Source of the DNA: Falsiroseomonas bella
GTDB lineage: Bacteria; Pseudomonadota; Alphaproteobacteria; Acetobacterales; Acetobacteraceae
Reading direction: 5' to 3'
Length of the DNA: 64,000 nucleotides
Assembly: GCF_003173615.1 (NCBI RefSeq)
Contig: NZ_QGNA01000003.1
Location: 620,001 to 684,000 of the forward strand
Positions 50,917-58,770 of this stretch are shown piece by piece; within the stretch, counting starts at the first letter, position 1; every line of letters starts with the position of its first letter. Made by a program: the position numbers and the translations under genes. Under the pieces are notes generated by a model that worked only from the letters and a program-made list of their open reading frames with translations, did not search any database and was not told the origin of the DNA.

Positions 50917-51696
50917 ATGGCCGATCACCCTCAGCAGGACCAGGACTGGGCCGCGCTGCTCGCGGCGCGGGATGGCGCGCCCGTACCGGCGACGCCGCTC
51001 GGCGACCTGTTCGGGCCGGTGCTCGCCGCGCCCACCGCGGCGGATGGCTGCCGTGTGATCGGTCGGCTCGCGCAGACCCTCGATGGGCGCATCGCCACGG
51101 CGGGCGGTGCCTCGCAATGGATCGGCGGCGCGGGCGACATCCTGCACACGCACCGGCTGCGCGCGCTGTGCGACGTGGTGCTGGTCGGCGCCGGCACGGT
51201 GCGGCACGACGATCCGCGGCTGACCACGCGCGACGTGGCGGGGCCCAATCCCGTGCGCGTGATCCTCGATCCCGCGCGCCGGCTGCCGGCGACGCATGGC
51301 GTCTTTCGGGACGGCGCGGCGCCGACGCTCCTGGTGGCGGCGACCGATGGTCCGCCCTCGCATGGCCAGGCGGAGGTGCTGCGCATCCCGCGCGCCGGCG
51401 AAGGGCTGGACCTGCCGGCGCTGCTGCGCGCGCTGGCCGCGCGAGGGCTGCGGCGGATCTTCGTGGAAGGCGGCGGGCAGACCGTGTCGGGTTTCCTCGC
51501 GGCGGGGCTGCTCGACCGGCTGCATGTGACGATCGCGCCGGTGATCCTCGGCTCCGGCATTCCCGCCTTCAGCCTGCCCGAGGCGACGCGCATCGCCGAC
51601 GGGCTGCGCTTCGCCTGGCGGATCTGGCCGATCGGCGATGACATACTCTGCGACGCGGCGCTGGACCGCGCGCGGCCGAAGGTCTGCGCGGCATGA
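50917..51696 (+). CDS. RibD C-terminal-type (DHFR-fold) reductase
   Basis: 259 residues. The RibD_C core begins CRVIGRLAQTLDGRIATAGG and contains SQWIGGAGDILHTHRLRALC, DVVLVGAGTVRHDDPRLTTR, GLRRIFVEGGGQTVSGFLAA and LDRLHVTIAPVILGSGIPAF. These are NADPH and pyrimidine-binding motifs of RibD reductases. The deaminase half of RibD is absent and the N-terminal ~45 residues are a divergent extension. So it probably reduces a pyrimidine or pterin ribityl-like intermediate. It overlaps the MDR gene by 4 bases and begins a five-gene operon. Upstream of it is the end of the flagellar operon. Confidence 0.88.
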   Translation: MADHPQQDQDWAALLAARDGAPVPATPLGDLFGPVLAAPTAADGCRVIGRLAQTLDGRIATAGGASQWIGGAGDILHTHRLRALCDVVLVGAGTVRHDDPRLTTRDVAGPNPVRVILDPARRLPATHGVFRDGAAPTLLVAATDGPPSHGQAEVLRIPRAGEGLDLPALLRALAARGLRRIFVEGGGQTVSGFLAAGLLDRLHVTIAPVILGSGIPAFSLPEATRIADGLRFAWRIWPIGDDILCDAALDRARPKVCAA

Positions 51697-52670
51697 AGGC
51701 GCGCGCCTTCTGGACGGTCGCGCCTGGGCGCGGGGAGATCCGCGAGGCGGAGCTCGCCGCCCCGGCCGCCGACCAGGCGCTGGTTGTCACGCGCGCGAGC
51801 GGCATCTCGCGCGGGACCGAGCGCCTCGTCTTCACCGGCCGCGTGCCGGAAAGCCAGTGGGGCGCGATGGGCGCGCCGCTGATGCAGGGCGGCTTCCCCT
51901 TCCCCGTCTCCTACGGCTACGCGGCGGTCGGCCTCGTGCAGGAGGGCCCGTCCGCGTTGCGCGGCCGCCGCGTCTTCTGCCTGCATCCGCACCACGACGC
52001 CTTCCTCGCGCCCGCCGCCATGTGCATCCCGGTCCCCGACACGGTGCCGGACAGGCGTGCCGTGCTGGCGGCCAACATGGAAACCGCCGTCAACGTGCTG
52101 TGGGATGCGCGCCCACTGGTCGGCGAGCGTGCGCTGGTGATCGGCGCGGGCGTGGTCGGGCTGCTGGTGGCCTTCCTGCTGGCGCGCGTGCCGGGCCTCG
52201 ACCTCGTCGTCTGCGACCTCGATGCCTCGCGCCGCGATCTGGTCGAGCGCTTCGGCGCCCGCTTCTGCGCGCCGCAGGATGCGCCGGGCGAGCGCGACCT
52301 GGTGGTGCATGCCTCGGCCAGCGCCGAGGGGCTGCGCCTCGCACTCACGCGCTGCGGCTTCGAGGGGCGGATCGTCGAGGCCTCCTGGTTCGGCGACCGC
52401 GCCGTGGAACTGCCGCTCGGCGAGGCCTTCCACGCGAAGCGCCTGTCGCTGGTCTCGACGCAGGTCGGCGCGGTGGCGCCGGCGATGCGCGGGCACCGCA
52501 CGCATGGGGAGCGGATGGCGCTCGCGCTGTCGCTGCTGGCCGATGACCGCCTGGACGCGCTGCTCGGGCCGGAGATCCCCTTCGCCGAATTGCCGGCGCG
52601 GATCGGGTCGGTGCTGTTGCCGGATGCCGGCGCGCCCCAACCTCTCTGTCCCGTCGTCACCTATATATAG
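51693..52670 (+). CDS. MDR-superfamily dehydrogenase, zinc-less BchC-like
   Basis: 325 residues. VTRASGISRGTERLVFTGRV and FPFPVSYGYAAVGLVQEGPS follow the pattern of BchC and related dehydrogenases, where the usual Cys and His-Glu zinc ligands of alcohol dehydrogenase are absent. The NAD(P) domain has ALVIGAGVVGLLVAFLLARV. The C-terminal RLSLVSTQVGAVAPAMRGHR is conserved in this group. It overlaps the RibD-like reductase gene by 4 bases and precedes the PTPS-like gene by 18, so it likely oxidises or reduces a product of the same pathway. Confidence 0.87.
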   Translation: MKARAFWTVAPGRGEIREAELAAPAADQALVVTRASGISRGTERLVFTGRVPESQWGAMGAPLMQGGFPFPVSYGYAAVGLVQEGPSALRGRRVFCLHPHHDAFLAPAAMCIPVPDTVPDRRAVLAANMETAVNVLWDARPLVGERALVIGAGVVGLLVAFLLARVPGLDLVVCDLDASRRDLVERFGARFCAPQDAPGERDLVVHASASAEGLRLALTRCGFEGRIVEASWFGDRAVELPLGEAFHAKRLSLVSTQVGAVAPAMRGHRTHGERMALALSLLADDRLDALLGPEIPFAELPARIGSVLLPDAGAPQPLCPVVTYI

Positions 52671-52688
52671 AGTGAGAGAGCGCCTGCG

Positions 52689-53087
52689 ATGTTCAGCCTG
52701 ACCGTCGTCGACCACATCATGATTGCGCACAGCTTCCGCGGCGAGGCCTTCGGCCCGGCGCAGCGGCTGCACGGCGCGACCTTCGTCGTCGAAGCCGAGT
52801 TCTGTGCGCCGAAGCTCGACGACCTGCACCTGCTGATCGACATCGGCCTGGCGAAGGACGTGCTGCGCGCGGTGCTCGCCCCGATCGACTATCGCAACCT
52901 GGATGCCGAGCCGGTCTTCGCCGGCAAGAACACCACCACCGAGTATCTCTGCCTGCACATCCAGCAGGAGCTCGCCAGCGCCTGCCGCGACGGGCGGCTC
53001 GGCGATGGCGGCAAGGCGGTGACCGGCATCAAGGTGCTGCTGCGCGAGAGCCATATCGCCTGGGCGGCCTTCGAAGGGCCTGTTTGA
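52689..53087 (+). CDS. 6-pyruvoyl/6-carboxy-tetrahydropterin synthase homologue, active site altered
   Basis: 132 residues with the QueD/PTPS T-fold. The family Zn ligands are three His and the catalytic residues a Cys, a His and an Asp. Here His14 (MIAHSF) and His28 remain, but the second His of the HGH motif is Ala30 (LHGATF), the Cys position is Ala25 (GPAQRLHG) and the LDHH catalytic motif is IDYR (Asp67 kept, His lost). NTTTEYLCLHI and LLRESHIAW retain the substrate-binding Glu120. It may therefore bind a pterin-like compound or catalyse something else. It sits between the MDR gene and the GT4 gene. Confidence 0.85.
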   Translation: MFSLTVVDHIMIAHSFRGEAFGPAQRLHGATFVVEAEFCAPKLDDLHLLIDIGLAKDVLRAVLAPIDYRNLDAEPVFAGKNTTTEYLCLHIQQELASACRDGRLGDGGKAVTGIKVLLRESHIAWAAFEGPV

Positions 53088-53092
53088 ACGAC

Positions 53093-54127
53093 ATGGATAT
53101 TGCCCTGCTCGTCCCCGGGCCGTTCGACACGATTTCGGGGGGCTACATCTATGACCGCCGGCTGGTCGAGGGCCTGCGCGGCCTCGGCCATGCGGTGCAG
53201 GTGGTGGAACTGCCCGGCTGCCACCCGCTGCCGGACGCCGCAGCGACGGAGGGCGCGCGCGCCGCGCTCGCCGCAATCCCGGCCTCGACGCGGATCATCG
53301 TCGACGGCCTCGGCCTGCCCGCCTTCGCGCCCTTCGCCGAGGAACTCGCCGCACGCCGCGCCGTCGGCCTGATCCACCACCCGACCGCGCTCGAGCACGG
53401 CAATCCCGGCGAGGTCCGCGACGCGCTGCGCGCCGCCGAGCAGGCGCTGTTCCCGCGCATGGCGCGCCTCGTCGCCACCAGCCCGCTCACCGCGCGGCGG
53501 CTGGAGCCGGAATTCGGCGTGGACCCGGCGCGCATCGGCGTGGTCGAGCCCGGCACCGATCCCGCCGCGCGCAGCGCAGGCTCGCGCGGGGGCTGCGCGA
53601 TCCTCTCGGTCGGCAGCCTGATCCCGCGCAAGGGCCATGACGTGCTGATGCGCGCGCTGGCCACGCTCTCCGACCTGGACTGGCGCCTGACCATCGCCGG
53701 CGGCGCGCGCGACCCGGTGTACGCGCACGGCCTGTCTGCCTTGGCCGAGGAACTCGGCATCGCGCAGCGCGTGACCTTCGCCGGCGAGGTGGACGGCCCG
53801 GCACTGGCGGCGCTGTGGCAGGGCACGGACCTCTTCGCGCTGGCCAGCCATTGGGAAGGCTACGGCATGGCCGTGGCCGAGGCGCTGGCGCGCGGCGTGC
53901 CGGTCGCCGTCACCGCCGGCGGCGCGCTGGCGGAGCTCGTGCCGGTCGAGGCCGGCGTGGTCTCGCCGCCCGGCGACGTGGTCTCGCTCGGCAAGGCGAT
54001 GCGCCGCGCCATCTTCGACACGGCGCTGCGCGCGGAGATGGCGGAGGCCGCCTGGCAGGCCGGGCAGCGCCTGCCACGCTGGGCCGACCGCGCGACCGCC
54101 TTCGCCGCCGAGCTGGAGAAGGCCTGA
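53093..54127 (+). CDS. GT4-family glycosyltransferase
   Basis: 344 residues, GT-B fold. The N-terminal Gly-rich loop is DTISGGYIYDRRLVEGLRGL. The C-terminal half has CAILSVGSLIPRKGHDVLMR and the ExxxxxxxE motif in ASHWEGYGMAVAEALARGVP, which binds the nucleotide sugar. The acceptor is unknown, but location in a pterin-like operon suggests sugar transfer to the pterin product, as pterin glycosides are known in cyanobacteria. ATG 53093 is preferred over TTG 53084, which overlaps the previous stop. The methyltransferase ATG follows its TGA directly. Confidence 0.9.
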   Translation: MDIALLVPGPFDTISGGYIYDRRLVEGLRGLGHAVQVVELPGCHPLPDAAATEGARAALAAIPASTRIIVDGLGLPAFAPFAEELAARRAVGLIHHPTALEHGNPGEVRDALRAAEQALFPRMARLVATSPLTARRLEPEFGVDPARIGVVEPGTDPAARSAGSRGGCAILSVGSLIPRKGHDVLMRALATLSDLDWRLTIAGGARDPVYAHGLSALAEELGIAQRVTFAGEVDGPALAALWQGTDLFALASHWEGYGMAVAEALARGVPVAVTAGGALAELVPVEAGVVSPPGDVVSLGKAMRRAIFDTALRAEMAEAAWQAGQRLPRWADRATAFAAELEKA

Positions 54128-55027
54128 ATGCCCGAGGAATTCGACGGCGACTGGCTCGACCTGCGCGAGCCCTTCGACGCGGCCGCGCGCGACCCTGGCC
54201 TTGCGGCGCAACTCTCGCAGGCACTGCCGGCACGGCCGCGCATTCTCGATCTCGGTGCCGGCACCGGCGCGCTGCTGCGCTGGCTCGGGCACTTCATCGG
54301 CCGCGCCCAGGCCTGGACGCTAGTGGACGCCGATGCCGCGCTGATCGAACGCGCCTTCGACACCATCGCGGAGCGCGCGGAGAATGCCGGCTGGGGCGTG
54401 ACCTTCCCGGGACGGAAGACGCTGCTGGTGCACAGCCCGCGCGGCGCATGGCGCGTGGAAGGGCTGGTCGCCGATCTGCGGGAAGCGCCGGACAACCTGC
54501 CGCTGCATGCAGTGGACGCGGTGGTGAACACCGCGCTCTGCGACCTGGTCAGCCACGGCTGGATCGAACGCATGGCGGCCGTCTGCGCCGCGCGCGGCCT
54601 GCCCTTCTATGCCGCGCTGAACGTCACGGGCCGCGAGCGCTTCTCCCCCCCGCATCGGGAGGACGCGCTGGTCGCCCGTGGCTTCGCCCGCGACCAGGCG
54701 CGCGACAAGGGCTTTGGCGGCATCGCGCTGGGCGCGCAGGCGCCGGAGGCGATCGCGGAGGCCTTCGCGGCGCAGGGCTATGCCGTGCTGCGCGCACCCT
54801 CCGACTGGTCGGTGCGCACGCGGCCGCTCAACCCCGTCGCGACGCGCTTCGCGGAGGAACTGGTGGGCGGCATGGCCGCGGCCGCCGGCCAGCATGAGCG
54901 GCGCGGCCGCCTCGCTCTGCGCGACTGGGCGCGGCTGCGCATGGAGCAGGCGGCGGATGGCCGGCTCGGCTTCCGCATCGGCCACGCCGACATGCTATGC
55001 CTACCGCCTGGGAAGGACACTGCCTGA
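54128..55027 (+). CDS. Class I SAM-dependent methyltransferase
   Basis: 299 residues. Motif I is PRILDLGAGTGALLRWLGHF, with WTLVDADAALIERAF giving the acidic end of beta2, and DAVVNTALCDLVSHGWIERM later in the core. The C-terminal third (ALRDWARLRMEQAADGRLGF) is helical and could bind substrate. The ATG begins immediately after the GT4 stop and its TGA overlaps the OtnK ATG. It is the last gene of the candidate pterin operon, or links it to the otnK/otnC pair. Confidence 0.88.
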   Translation: MPEEFDGDWLDLREPFDAAARDPGLAAQLSQALPARPRILDLGAGTGALLRWLGHFIGRAQAWTLVDADAALIERAFDTIAERAENAGWGVTFPGRKTLLVHSPRGAWRVEGLVADLREAPDNLPLHAVDAVVNTALCDLVSHGWIERMAAVCAARGLPFYAALNVTGRERFSPPHREDALVARGFARDQARDKGFGGIALGAQAPEAIAEAFAAQGYAVLRAPSDWSVRTRPLNPVATRFAEELVGGMAAAAGQHERRGRLALRDWARLRMEQAADGRLGFRIGHADMLCLPPGKDTA

Positions 55028-56286
55028 TGGCTCTTCTGCTCGGCTGCGTCGCGGACGACTTCACCGGCGCGACGGACCTCGCCTCCATGCTGGTGCGCAA
55101 CGGCATGACCTGCGTGCAGGTGATTGGCGTGCCCACCGGTCCCTTGCCCGAGGCCGACGCCGTGGTGATCGCGCTGAAGTCCCGCACCGCGCCGGTTGCG
55201 CAGGCGGTGGCGGAGAGTGTCGCGGCGGCCGAGGCGCTGCTGGCCGCAGGCGCGAAGCAGCTCTTCTTCAAATACTGCTCGACCTTCGACAGCACGGACG
55301 ACGGCAACATCGGCCCGGTGGCGGATGCGCTGCTGAAGCGGCTCGGCGCCGGCTTCGCCATCGCCTGCCCGGCCTTCCCGGCCAATGGCCGCAGCATCTA
55401 CCAGGGGCACCTCTTCGTGGGATCGCGCCTGCTGAACGAGAGCGGGATGGAGAACCACCCCCTCACCCCGATGAAGGATGCCGATCTCGTGCGCGTGCTG
55501 TCGCGCCAGACCGATGGCGGCGTCGGCCTCGTGCCCTTCGCCGTGGTCGAGCAGGGCGCGGCGGCGATCCGGCAGGCGATGACGAAGCTGGCGGAAGGCG
55601 GGCGACGCTACGCGATCGTGGATGCCGTCAGCGACGCGCATCTGCACGCGATCGGTGAGGCCTGCGCCAGCCATGCGCTGGTCACCGGCGGCTCGGGCGT
55701 CGCGATGGGCCTGCCCGGGAATTTCCGGCGCGCCGGCCTGCTGCCGGAGCGCAGCGACGCCGCGGCCTTGCCGAAGGCGGAGGGGCTCTGCGCGGTCGTC
55801 GCGGGGTCCTGCTCCCGCGCCACGCTCGGGCAGATCGGGCTCGCGCGCGATCACGTGCCGGTTCTCGAGCTCGATGCGCTCGCCACGCCCGATGCGCAGG
55901 CGCTGGCACGGCAGGCGCTGGACTGGGTCGAGGGCAGGCTCGCCGCCGACCGGCCCGTGGTGATCGCAGCGAGCGCGCCGCCCGAGAAGGTGGCCGCGCT
56001 GCAGCAGAAGCTGGGACGCGACGCCGCAGGCACGCTGGTGGAGGAAGCGCTGGCGGCCGTCGCGAAAGGGCTGGTCGCACGCGGCGTGAAGCGGCTGGTG
56101 GTGGCGGGCGGCGAGACTTCCGGCGCGGTGGTGCAGCGGCTCGGCGTCACGTCGCTGCGCATCGGCGCCGAGATCGATCCGGGCGTGCCCTGGACGTTTG
56201 CGGAACCGGTGGGGATTCACCTGGCGCTCAAGAGCGGCAATTTCGGCGCGCGCGACTTCTTCCTCAAGGCCTTCACCCATGGATGA
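55027..56286 (+). CDS. otnK: Four-carbon acid sugar kinase OtnK
   Basis: 419 residues. OtnK phosphorylates 3-oxo-tetronates (from D-threonate, L-erythronate). LLLGCVADDFTGATDLASML, FKYCSTFDSTDDGNIGPVAD, CPAFPANGRSIYQGHLFVGS, MENHPLTPMKDADLVRVLSR and VAGGETSGAVVQRLGV are hallmark motifs; the N-terminal domain binds substrate and the C-terminal domain ATP. It overlaps the previous stop (TGATG) and the otnC start by 8 bases. The partner dehydrogenase (ltnD-type) and isomerase (otnI) are not in the window. Confidence 0.95.
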   Translation: MALLLGCVADDFTGATDLASMLVRNGMTCVQVIGVPTGPLPEADAVVIALKSRTAPVAQAVAESVAAAEALLAAGAKQLFFKYCSTFDSTDDGNIGPVADALLKRLGAGFAIACPAFPANGRSIYQGHLFVGSRLLNESGMENHPLTPMKDADLVRVLSRQTDGGVGLVPFAVVEQGAAAIRQAMTKLAEGGRRYAIVDAVSDAHLHAIGEACASHALVTGGSGVAMGLPGNFRRAGLLPERSDAAALPKAEGLCAVVAGSCSRATLGQIGLARDHVPVLELDALATPDAQALARQALDWVEGRLAADRPVVIAASAPPEKVAALQQKLGRDAAGTLVEEALAAVAKGLVARGVKRLVVAGGETSGAVVQRLGVTSLRIGAEIDPGVPWTFAEPVGIHLALKSGNFGARDFFLKAFTHG

Positions 56287-56914
56287 GCGCGCCCTCCGCG
56301 AGGAACTGGCGGTGCTCGGGAAGTCGCTGTTCGACCGCGGCTACTCGGTCGGCACGGCCGGCAACGTCAGCGTTCGCCTGCCGGACGGCTACCTGATGAC
56401 GCCGACCAATTCCTGCCTCGGACGGCTGGATCCGGCGCGGATCAGCAAGCTGGCGCCGGACTGGTCGCATATCACGGGCGACAAGCCGAGCAAGGAGGTG
56501 TTCCTGCATCGCGCCGTGCTGACGGCGCGGCCGGAGGCGGGTGCCGTCGTGCATCTCCACTCGACCTACGCCACGGCGATCTCCTGTCTGGCTCCCGAAG
56601 GCGGCGACGCGGAGGTGCCGCCGCTGACACCCTATTTCGTCATGCGCATCGGCCGCCGCCTCCCCTGCGTGCCCTATTACCGCCCGGGCGACGGCGCGAT
56701 GGAACCGGCGGTGTTCGAGGCGGCGAAGGTCGCGAAGGCGCTGCTGCTGGCGAACCATGGCCCTGTGGTGAGCGGCGCCACGCTGCGCGACGCGGTGTAC
56801 GCCGCCGAGGAGCTGGAGGAGGCCGCGCGGCTGGCGCTGCTGCTGCGCAACGTACCCGGCGTGCGGCGGCTGACGCCGGCGCAGGTGGACGACCTGCTGC
56901 AGACCTTCGGGTAA
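56279..56914 (+). CDS. otnC: 3-oxo-tetronate 4-phosphate decarboxylase OtnC (class II aldolase family)
   Basis: 211 residues. Zinc-binding His residues are in VVHLHSTYATAISCLAPEGG and LLANHGPVVSGATLRDAV, and SVGTAGNVSVRLPDGYLMTP is the phosphate-binding loop. OtnC decarboxylates the OtnK product, yielding dihydroxyacetone phosphate. It overlaps otnK, so kinase and decarboxylase are translated together. It is followed by a family-A repeat and the converging GNAT gene. Confidence 0.95.
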   Translation: MDERALREELAVLGKSLFDRGYSVGTAGNVSVRLPDGYLMTPTNSCLGRLDPARISKLAPDWSHITGDKPSKEVFLHRAVLTARPEAGAVVHLHSTYATAISCLAPEGGDAEVPPLTPYFVMRIGRRLPCVPYYRPGDGAMEPAVFEAAKVAKALLLANHGPVVSGATLRDAVYAAEELEEAARLALLLRNVPGVRRLTPAQVDDLLQTFG

Positions 56915-57660: not shown

Positions 57661-58116
57661 TCAGGATGCGTTGTCGGCCGACGGCGCGGCGGCAGCGGCG
57701 GCAGCGGCGGCGCGCTTCGCGGCGCGGGTCGCGGCGGCCTTCTTCGCGGCCTCCGAACGGGCGGAGGTCGCCTTCTTCGGCGCCGCCTTGCGGGCGGTCG
57801 TCTTCTTCGCCGCCGCCTTCTTCGGCGCGGCCTTGCGAGCGGTCGTCTTCTTCGCCGCCGCCTTCTTCGGCGCCGCCTTGCGGGCGGTCGTCTTCTTCGC
57901 CGCCGCCTTCTTCGGCGCCGCCTTGCGGGCGGTCGTCTTCTTCGCCGCCGCCTTCTTCGGCGCCGCCTTGCGGGCGGTCGTCTTCTTCGCCGCCGCCTTC
58001 TTCGGCGCGGCCTTCTTCGCCGCCGGCTTCCGGGCGGTCTTCTTCGTGGCGGCCATCGCCATCGCCTGGGCGCGGGGCTCGGCTTCGGTCTCGGTGGTCT
58101 CGACGATATCGGTCAT
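57661..58116 (-). CDS. Histone H1-like Lys/Ala-rich DNA-binding protein
   Basis: 151 residues. A short acidic N-terminus (MTDIVETTETEAEPRAQAMA) is followed by about five near-identical 15-residue units of KKAAAKKTTARKAAP, then KKATSARSEAAKKAAATRAA and a poly-Ala tail. This resembles the C-terminal domains of histone H1 and bacterial H1-like proteins (AlgP, HctB), which bind DNA through Lys-rich tails. The 45-bp DNA repeats are nearly identical, so copy number may vary among strains. The ATG at 58116 is chosen for its RBS (AAGGACC) and for excluding a non-repetitive 53-residue extension. Confidence 0.85.
   Translation of the reverse strand: MTDIVETTETEAEPRAQAMAMAATKKTARKPAAKKAAPKKAAAKKTTARKAAPKKAAAKKTTARKAAPKKAAAKKTTARKAAPKKAAAKKTTARKAAPKKAAAKKTTARKAAPKKATSARSEAAKKAAATRAAKRAAAAAAAAAPSADNAS
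57772..58020 (-). repeat. 45-bp coding tandem repeats
   Basis: About five copies of a 45-bp unit encode KKAAAKKTTARKAAP. Copies differ at only a few third-codon positions. Such repeats are prone to slippage and recombination, so the protein length may differ between isolates. Confidence 0.85.
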
Positions 58117-58770
58117 TCTGTCAGGTCCTTCGTGTGTGACGCGGTGATGTTCCGAAGGCGGGGCACACGCGCGGAAACGGGGCGCGGCGTCCGCCGAGGC
58201 AGTCGGGGTGGCGTCGTCACGGCCGGCGCGGATCCCGTATCGCGCCAGACCGCGGCATGCGCCGTCCACTCCCACGCAGGCGCCGGGGACGACGCGCGCC
58301 GCGCTGCATGGCGCCTGGCGCGTGTTCCGGCATCTCTCCCGCCGGGCGCTGGCGCGCGGGGCGCGCTGTCCGGCGGTGCGGAGAAGGATGTGCGTTGGAT
58401 GCCAACCTCCCCCCCGAGCCTGCGGTCCATGGACCGATCCTTCCTGCCGCGCGCCGCGCCGACGTGTCGCTTGCCTTCCTTCGATCGCTGCGTCGTGGAG
58501 TGTGCCGACGTCGCCGCTTCGATCTTCGGCGCGCGAATCGCGTCAAGCGCGTGCGTGCGAATCAGACGTGCGGCATTCGCGCGCAACGTGTCAAACGGAA
58601 TCGCATCGCGATGCACGATGACGCGCATGATTTTCGTCGCGACGACTCTGCGTACTGCGTCGTGGTGTCGTCGGGCGTCGTCGGAGAGCGGAAGACGGCG
58701 GTGCTGCGAAGCGTCGCGACGCACCTGCCGAGGTGCCGCGCCGGCATCCGCCGGCGCGGCGCGCGAAGCG
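58117..58770. other. 654-base gap upstream of the histone-like gene
   Basis: No convincing gene. The minus-strand frame over it lacks coding character. Bases ~58480-58720 are strikingly rich in CG dinucleotides and TCG/GCG triplets. The region should contain the promoter of the histone-like gene. A strong terminator hairpin of prpC lies at its right end. Confidence 0.55.
58735..58760 (-). terminator. Hairpin after prpC
   Basis: GCCGCGCCGGC (58735-58745) and GCCGGCGCGGC (58750-58760) form a perfect 11-bp stem over an ATCC loop, 10 bases beyond the prpC stop. There is no T tract. Confidence 0.6.

Follow-up and report, generated by a model that had tools for sequence, protein, structure and literature searches.

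A conserved five-gene block of Falsiroseomonas bella, homologous to the region around Streptomyces SCO6650, as candidate core of a GTP-derived pathway

Genes and encoded proteins

The window analysed here is a stretch of 64,000 nucleotides from the alphaproteobacterium Falsiroseomonas bella (family Acetobacteraceae; contig NZ_QGNA01000003.1, positions 620,001 to 684,000). At 50917-55027, it carries five open reading frames (ORFs) that run in one direction and are nearly gap-free. An ORF check and profile matches agree with an earlier note on this DNA, which placed five tightly coupled genes with the same domain content at these coordinates. We put the probability at roughly 0.5 that this block is homologous to the one surrounding Streptomyces SCO6650 and forms the core of a widespread pathway, derived from guanosine triphosphate (GTP), whose function is uncharacterised. 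The five genes are:

50917..51696, plus strand: RibD_C-type reductase, a relative of the 2,5-diamino-6-ribosylaminopyrimidinone 5'-phosphate reductases (PF01872, 152.5 bits)
51693..52670, plus strand: BchC-like medium-chain dehydrogenase/reductase (MDR) (NCBIfam TIGR01202, BchC, 49 bits, cut-off 291)
52689..53087, plus strand: T-fold protein like 6-pyruvoyltetrahydropterin synthase (PTPS), SCO6650 type, with HGA for HGH (PF01242, 69 bits)
53084..54127, plus strand: GT4 glycosyltransferase, TTG start (PF00534, 99.8 bits)
54128..55027, plus strand: class I S-adenosylmethionine-dependent methyltransferase (AlphaFold pLDDT 96; PDB methyltransferase matches)

Consecutive genes are spaced, in order, by a 4-base overlap, an 18-base gap, a 4-base overlap, and no bases at all. 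Pattern scans gave no terminator-like site at the locus and a single, weak promoter-like match at 54357, and no tRNA was found at the five-gene locus.

The PTPS-like protein connects the block to a solved structure. In a single-sequence search of the PDB, its sole match at E 0.01 is 3d7j (153 bits), deposited as 'Uncharacterized protein SCO6650'. The motif FGPA[QR]xxHGA is present, and HGA stands for the HGH of known PTPS types in 153 of 153 sequences; 80 of these are actinobacterial and came from searches whose patterns contained HGA, and the other 73 came from profile or protein searches. By alignment, two of the three usual zinc-site histidines are kept while alanine replaces the third in all 153. 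None of the 153 has a cysteine in the nucleophile stretch (positions 19-30 of the aligned part), and a glutamate near the C terminus is conserved. That glutamate and the family are shared with QueD and PTPS-I to PTPS-III of COG0720, which differ in having HGH and, in types I and II, an upstream cysteine, neither of which is found here (accessible part of PMC5041015). The same part of that review names subfamilies I-IV and VI and calls PTPS-V unclear. The window protein reaches 37 bits with the QueD model (cut-off 89) and is the only PTPS-family match in its genome. The earlier description as a PTPS homologue stands as membership of PF01242, in a form that lacks HGH and is a relative of SCO6650. 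We infer that the protein binds a pterin-like compound and carries out neither the PTPS nor the QueD reaction. SCO6650 is reportedly inactive as a PTPS, and papers from 2008 are said to treat it together with its gene cluster.

The best PDB sequence matches of the RibD_C protein are 6p8c (106 bits) and 2azn (83 bits), both named pyrimidine(one) reductases and both of archaeal origin. The RibD chains 2o7p and 2g6v match less well (66 bits). The RibD_C label given earlier is borne out by PF01872 and can be refined to the 2,5-diaminopyrimidine type, to which these nearest matches belong. Unlike those reductases, the window protein is encoded in a cluster without riboflavin genes and falls under the equivalog cut-off of TIGR01508 (107.6 of 186 bits), and its substrate is a prediction. 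The BchC-like dehydrogenase exceeds the cut-off of no Pfam family. Its AlphaFold model (46 sequences; pLDDT 96.1) has the MDR fold and matches sorbitol, xylitol, and idonate dehydrogenases as well as TarJ, the enzyme that forms ribitol 5-phosphate from ribulose 5-phosphate by reduction. Matches of about the same quality are found to many other MDR enzymes. The relation to BchC implied by the earlier label is visible but weak, and at 49 bits against 291 the protein lies outside the bacteriochlorophyll BchC family. Three PDB matches of the GT4 protein reach E 1e-12, namely 6kih (Tll1590), 3c4q, and 3c48, the last two of them MshA. The model of the methyltransferase (28 sequences; pLDDT 96.2) has class I methyltransferases as top PDB matches (best TM 0.56). 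This fold agrees with the call made in the earlier note, as does a homologue at locus L112 that passes PF13649, but the window copy itself stays under the Pfam cut-offs (L and G numbers are our handles for loci and genomes).

Conservation of the block

When 59 genomes, that of the window included, were searched with the BchC-like protein, 26 were positive: 15/15 in the genus, 10/20 in the rest of the family, and 1/24 in the rest of the class. The 19 loci from the family each have the RibD_C, BchC-like, and PTPS-like genes; 18 have the GT4 gene and 15 the methyltransferase gene, and all five stand together in 15. Profile searches of the class used E-value thresholds of 1e-20 (PTPS-like), 1e-30 (BchC-like), 1e-75 (RibA), and 1e-25 (cytidine diphosphate [CDP]-alcohol phosphotransferase). 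The PTPS-like profile was positive in 45/385 genomes scattered over the class, and the BchC-like profile gave 45/385 with an identical list, the sameness of the 385-genome sets across searches resting on equal counts and matching handles among the genomes listed. Genome G069 carries the two on separate contigs. The sampled genomes are related and not independent, and the co-occurrence statistics are descriptive. An accidental neighbourhood was rejected on the identity of the two lists. The earlier note had let its proposal depend on joint conservation, and these genes are conserved together, both in the family and across the class.

Surroundings were covered for 40 of the 45 PTPS-positive class genomes, the window included, and some gene absences among them are contig ends. 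These 40 loci hold the BchC-like gene in 39 cases, GT4 in 38, the methyltransferase in 35, RibD_C in 31, RibA in 15 (that of L096 weak and RibBA-like), the CDP-alcohol phosphotransferase in 11, and a creatininase-family gene in 7. At L112 (6130-12064), seven core genes are contiguous in a 1.4-Mb genome, in a stretch of 28% G+C. A phylum-wide search of 359 genomes gave 23 positives, nine of them outside the class; GT4, methyltransferase, and RibD_C occur in 13 each of 14 of these 23 loci, RibA in six, and creatininase in two. The six of these 14 loci that lie outside the class all combine the four-gene block (BchC-like, PTPS-like, GT4, and methyltransferase) with genes for a CDP-alcohol phosphotransferase and a flippase-like protein; RibD_C is present in five of them, and RibA and creatininase in two. 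Three of the six (L224, 10223-12160; L225; L228) encode GT4 and methyltransferase as a fusion in a single open frame. A possible fourth fusion, at the actinobacterial locus L189, runs off the contig end.

The actinobacterial loci are the best 80 of at least 595 matched stretches, are near SCO6650 by construction (it stands first in the alignment), and include two from one species. Among them, the BchC-like gene and the CDP-alcohol phosphotransferase are each found in 79, the methyltransferase in 78, GT4 in 77, the flippase-like gene in 74, RibA and creatininase in 70 each, and RibD_C in 13 (ten of the cluster type by score). The four-gene block with GT4 and methyltransferase is present in 34/40 class loci, 12/14 phylum-search loci, and 76/80 actinobacterial loci. 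Hence, the block is one gene set common to distantly related bacteria and not a local arrangement. The two kinds of locus differ in what is added: the actinobacterial ones bring RibA, creatininase, CDP-alcohol phosphotransferase, and flippase-like genes but, for the most part, no RibD_C, whereas the window has RibD_C locally and none of these four, and its genome has no phosphotransferase. In a tree of 46 BchC-like rows, the window groups with its own family (nine rows) and the four actinobacterial rows stand together, with unsettled bootstrap values. Streptomyces tendae has, at L209, a second SCO6650-type PTPS with no other profiled gene within 18 kb.

The block is flanked upstream of the RibD_C gene by FlgN and FlgI genes. 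Downstream lie:

55027..56286, plus strand: 3-oxo-tetronate kinase, OtnK type (NF043035, 608.8 bits, cut-off 350)
56279..56914, plus strand: 3-oxo-tetronate 4-phosphate decarboxylase, OtnC type (NF043034, 278 bits, cut-off 250)

A start at 55027 that fits the OtnK model forms a TGATG overlap with the stop of the methyltransferase gene, and the transcription unit probably extends past the methyltransferase into the OtnK-like gene. OtnK adjoins the block in 18/19 and OtnC in 14/19 loci of the family, while neither was found at L047, a locus of another family; the pair is probably a lineage-specific addition. OtnK is kept in three loci without the methyltransferase (L044-L046), and why these four-carbon acid-sugar genes travel with the block is unexplained. 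The limits drawn in the earlier note hold for the five genes as a dedicated set, but further enzymes lie outside them. Families of neighbouring ORFs were collected with ORFs overlapping core genes excluded, and ten representatives were identified; the remaining families may be antisense, as the DNA is G+C-rich. On the minus strand, at 57661-58275, the window has a repetitive ORF rich in Ala and Lys, with AAKK repeats, that looks like histone H1 by eye.

Probable entry from GTP and a proposed route

The first substrate is suggested by RibA. In the proteobacterial cluster RibA proteins (the label proteobacterial, for non-actinobacterial loci, is presumptive), the three invariant zinc-site cysteines are kept by alignment. 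The tyrosine of the stretch K-x-R-x-Y-x-LQ, which corresponds to Tyr105 of E. coli RibA, is kept in 20/21 matches, the exception being the weak RibBA-like frame of L096. The same site in 70 actinobacterial proteins is Met in 44, His in 10, and Gln in 1, with 15 unmatched by the pattern. Methionine at this site in SCO6655 reportedly stops the reaction at the formylated product. The Met/His-type RibA fits the presence of creatininase, which is found in 70/80 actinobacterial loci against 7/40 and 2/14 of the others. BrbF, which belongs to the creatininase family, has been proven to act as a formamidase on the formylated GTP product AFRPP in the riboflavin synthesis of Sinorhizobium meliloti (PMC9478397). 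Because the RibA residue pattern and the creatininase distribution agree with the role of BrbF, the genes point to 2,5-diamino-6-ribosylaminopyrimidinone 5'-phosphate as an early intermediate. The BrbF/ArfB formamidases that work with GTP cyclohydrolase II or III would share both the creatininase-family partner of RibA and this intermediate (same source); they differ in that the downstream genes here are not riboflavin genes, and the likeness is one of family. SCO6655 is named once in the accessible part of PMC2853524.

The genome of the window has candidates for both entry enzymes on other contigs. Searched with the cluster profile, the genome gives 377 bits for the RibA on contig 10 against 147 bits for its RibBA, and the best of seven creatininases, on contig 11, scores 268 bits (next best 161). 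Neither set of neighbours gave a further pathway link, and no profiled pathway gene lies within the 18-kb stretch around the contig 11 creatininase. A GTP cyclohydrolase partner, for which the earlier note had proposed a neighbourhood check, is found in many genomes, but it is a type II enzyme (RibA) and here is encoded on another contig. On contig 8, a bifunctional RibD (deaminase and reductase domains) stands about 1.3 kb from RibBA; a third RibD_C match elsewhere on that contig is weaker, at 64 bits. The FolE gene lies on contig 1.

A further partner, which the window lacks, is the CDP-alcohol phosphotransferase. These enzymes carry the motif D-x2-DG-x2-AR-x8-G-x3-D-x3-D (one A reads S in the alignment), and in many loci such a gene stands beside the block. 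Across the class it occurs in 23/385 genomes, 22 of them PTPS-positive; in the PTPS-negative carrier, a 74%-complete genome, it stands beside a cluster-type RibD_C on a 14-kb contig (L245). In eight stretches it is separate from the block: it stands near RibA in L238 and L239, by RibD_C in L241 and L245, with FkbM in L240 and with both FkbM and MdoH in L241, with a sulfatase-family gene in L244, and, an ABC match aside, with no profiled partner in L242 and L243. Judged by this co-occurrence, the phosphotransferase counts as a pathway member in roughly half of the carriers in the class. Sulfatase-family, FkbM, MdoH, ChvA/NdvA-type, and flippase-like genes adjoin the block in some loci and are suggestive, though no more, of export or envelope use. 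An MdoH/OpgH-type glucan glucosyltransferase gene is divergent next to the BchC-like gene in L089, L230, L235, and others, and a ChvA/NdvA-type glucan exporter gene lies beyond the creatininase in L089 and L115.

Taken together, the genes probably convert GTP to a small molecule that is pterin-like and bears a sugar, a pterin or related heterocycle being the likeliest product. In the proposed route, (1) RibA, encoded on another contig here, would open GTP to 2-amino-5-formylamino- or 2,5-diamino-6-ribosylaminopyrimidinone 5'-phosphate, and (2) the creatininase-family formamidase would strip the formyl group where RibA cannot deformylate. (3) The RibD_C enzyme would then reduce the ribosyl to a ribityl group and (4) the BchC-like dehydrogenase would oxidise a secondary alcohol of the polyol, most simply at C2', giving the 1-amino-1-deoxy-ketose that GTP cyclohydrolase I reaches via Amadori rearrangement. 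(5) The PTPS-like protein may bind this ketose and guide ring closure to a dihydropterin, which (6) the GT4 enzyme would glycosylate and the methyltransferase methylate. (7) In lineages with the phosphotransferase and the flippase-like protein, the product might be attached to a phospho-alcohol, which may be a lipid, and then cross the membrane. Steps 1 and 2, the entry, are likely and supported by comparison. Steps 3 to 7 are more conjectural, and 4, 5, and 7 are the weakest; reduction at C1' and oxidation at C2' are suggested by the PDB matches of the RibD_C and BchC-like proteins.

Several observations weigh against this scheme. RibA and creatininase are near the block in 0/19 loci of the family. 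Cluster-type RibA occurs in 37/45 PTPS-positive but also in 113/340 PTPS-negative class genomes, which weakens it as an exclusive pathway marker, and 8/45 PTPS-positive genomes are under its threshold. Two more distant BrbF relatives failed to replace BrbF (PMC9478397). The cluster creatininases are candidate counterparts of BrbF by family, and that of L112 reaches no NCBIfam equivalog cut-off. The RibD_C step is not universal because, among 32 actinobacterial genomes searched whole, the 29 chosen from loci without a local RibD_C have no cluster-type copy genome-wide (best 112 bits), as against 236-249 bits in the three chosen carriers. Two of the zinc ligands usual in MDR enzymes are apparently missing from the BchC-like family, as judged partly by eye, and the matches of this family to polyol dehydrogenases are generic. 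Ring closure by the PTPS-like protein is conjectural, and SCO6650 is reportedly inactive as a PTPS. Moreover, the methyltransferase is absent from 4/19 loci of the family (one a short contig piece), and the CDP-alcohol phosphotransferase is absent from 23/45 PTPS-positive class genomes, among them that of the window, which gave no match at E 1e-25.

Alternative readings and significance

The phosphotransferase could also be read as the centre of the system. The end product would then be a phosphatidyl- or phospho-linked conjugate, in which a diaminopyrimidine or pterin polyol phosphate is set as a lipid head group by this enzyme, then glycosylated, methylated, flipped, and possibly passed to periplasmic glucans, as the sulfatase-family and MdoH neighbours might suggest; the operon in the window would be the head-group module. 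The presence of phosphotransferase and flippase-like genes in 79 and 74 of the 80 actinobacterial loci and of both in all six loci outside the class agrees with such a product, as do the 22 of 23 phosphotransferase-bearing class genomes that are PTPS-positive and the sulfatase-family, FkbM, MdoH, and ChvA/NdvA-type genes beside some blocks. We nevertheless regard it as possible and on balance doubtful: the genome of the window and 23/45 PTPS-positive class genomes lack the enzyme, two of the eight separate stretches (L242 and L243) have no profiled partner beside it, MdoH and sulfatase-family genes adjoin only 10/40 and 5/40 class loci, and the ABC matches are mostly generic (five above 500 bits over all loci).

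RibA, BrbF, and RibD_C are riboflavin-type enzymes and BrbF serves riboflavin synthesis in S. meliloti (PMC9478397), so that a spare or alternative riboflavin branch with chance neighbours might be considered. Such a branch is improbable and was rejected on the separate riboflavin genes of the genome, its RibD and RibBA on contig 8. The PTPS-like, BchC-like, GT4, and methyltransferase proteins have no known role in riboflavin synthesis, and the first two co-occur without exception in the sample. Scans of seven window genes and of ten recurrent ORFs from the neighbourhood gave no riboflavin gene; among the seven, Pfam showed no deaminase, no lumazine synthase, and no riboflavin synthase. That the protein is the sole PTPS-family match in its genome might speak for an operon of the usual PTPS/QueD kind, serving queuosine, folate, or biopterin. 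Such an operon is hardly credible given HGA for HGH in all 153 sequences, a QueD score less than half the cut-off, and FolE on another contig, and it was rejected on motif and model scores.

A bolder version of the proposed GTP-derived pathway is that the genes make pterins from GTP by a second route built on redox steps, in which C1' is reduced, C2' oxidised, and the ring closed on a PTPS fold without the usual zinc site. It would give a glycosylated, methylated pterin head group, coupled to lipid in many lineages. We consider this unlikely as it stands; if true, it would mean a pterin-lipid class common to proteobacteria and actinobacteria. The pterin glycoside pathways of Chlorobium and cyanobacteria start from GTP cyclohydrolase I and biopterin, and in this they differ from the route proposed here. 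The likeness to those compounds is that the product here would also be a glycosylated pterin (PMC5683033, PMC13259868).

No characterised pathway with this gene set was found in searches of the open-licence literature, some of them aimed at gene names or pterin glycosides and not at the full set, in agreement with what the earlier note had stated. Its word 'undescribed' fits in so far as this literature gave no account of the pathway, but SCO6650 already has a deposited structure (3d7j). That orphan structure is now linked with a defined set of genes whose entry point can be tested, and HGA for HGH offers a simple annotation sign against QueD and PTPS calls. The CDP-alcohol phosphotransferase points to an unexpected membrane end product. 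The set is kept in 45/385 genomes of the class, including small AT-rich ones of 1.4-1.6 Mb, and in many actinobacteria, which suggests that its product likely matters widely.

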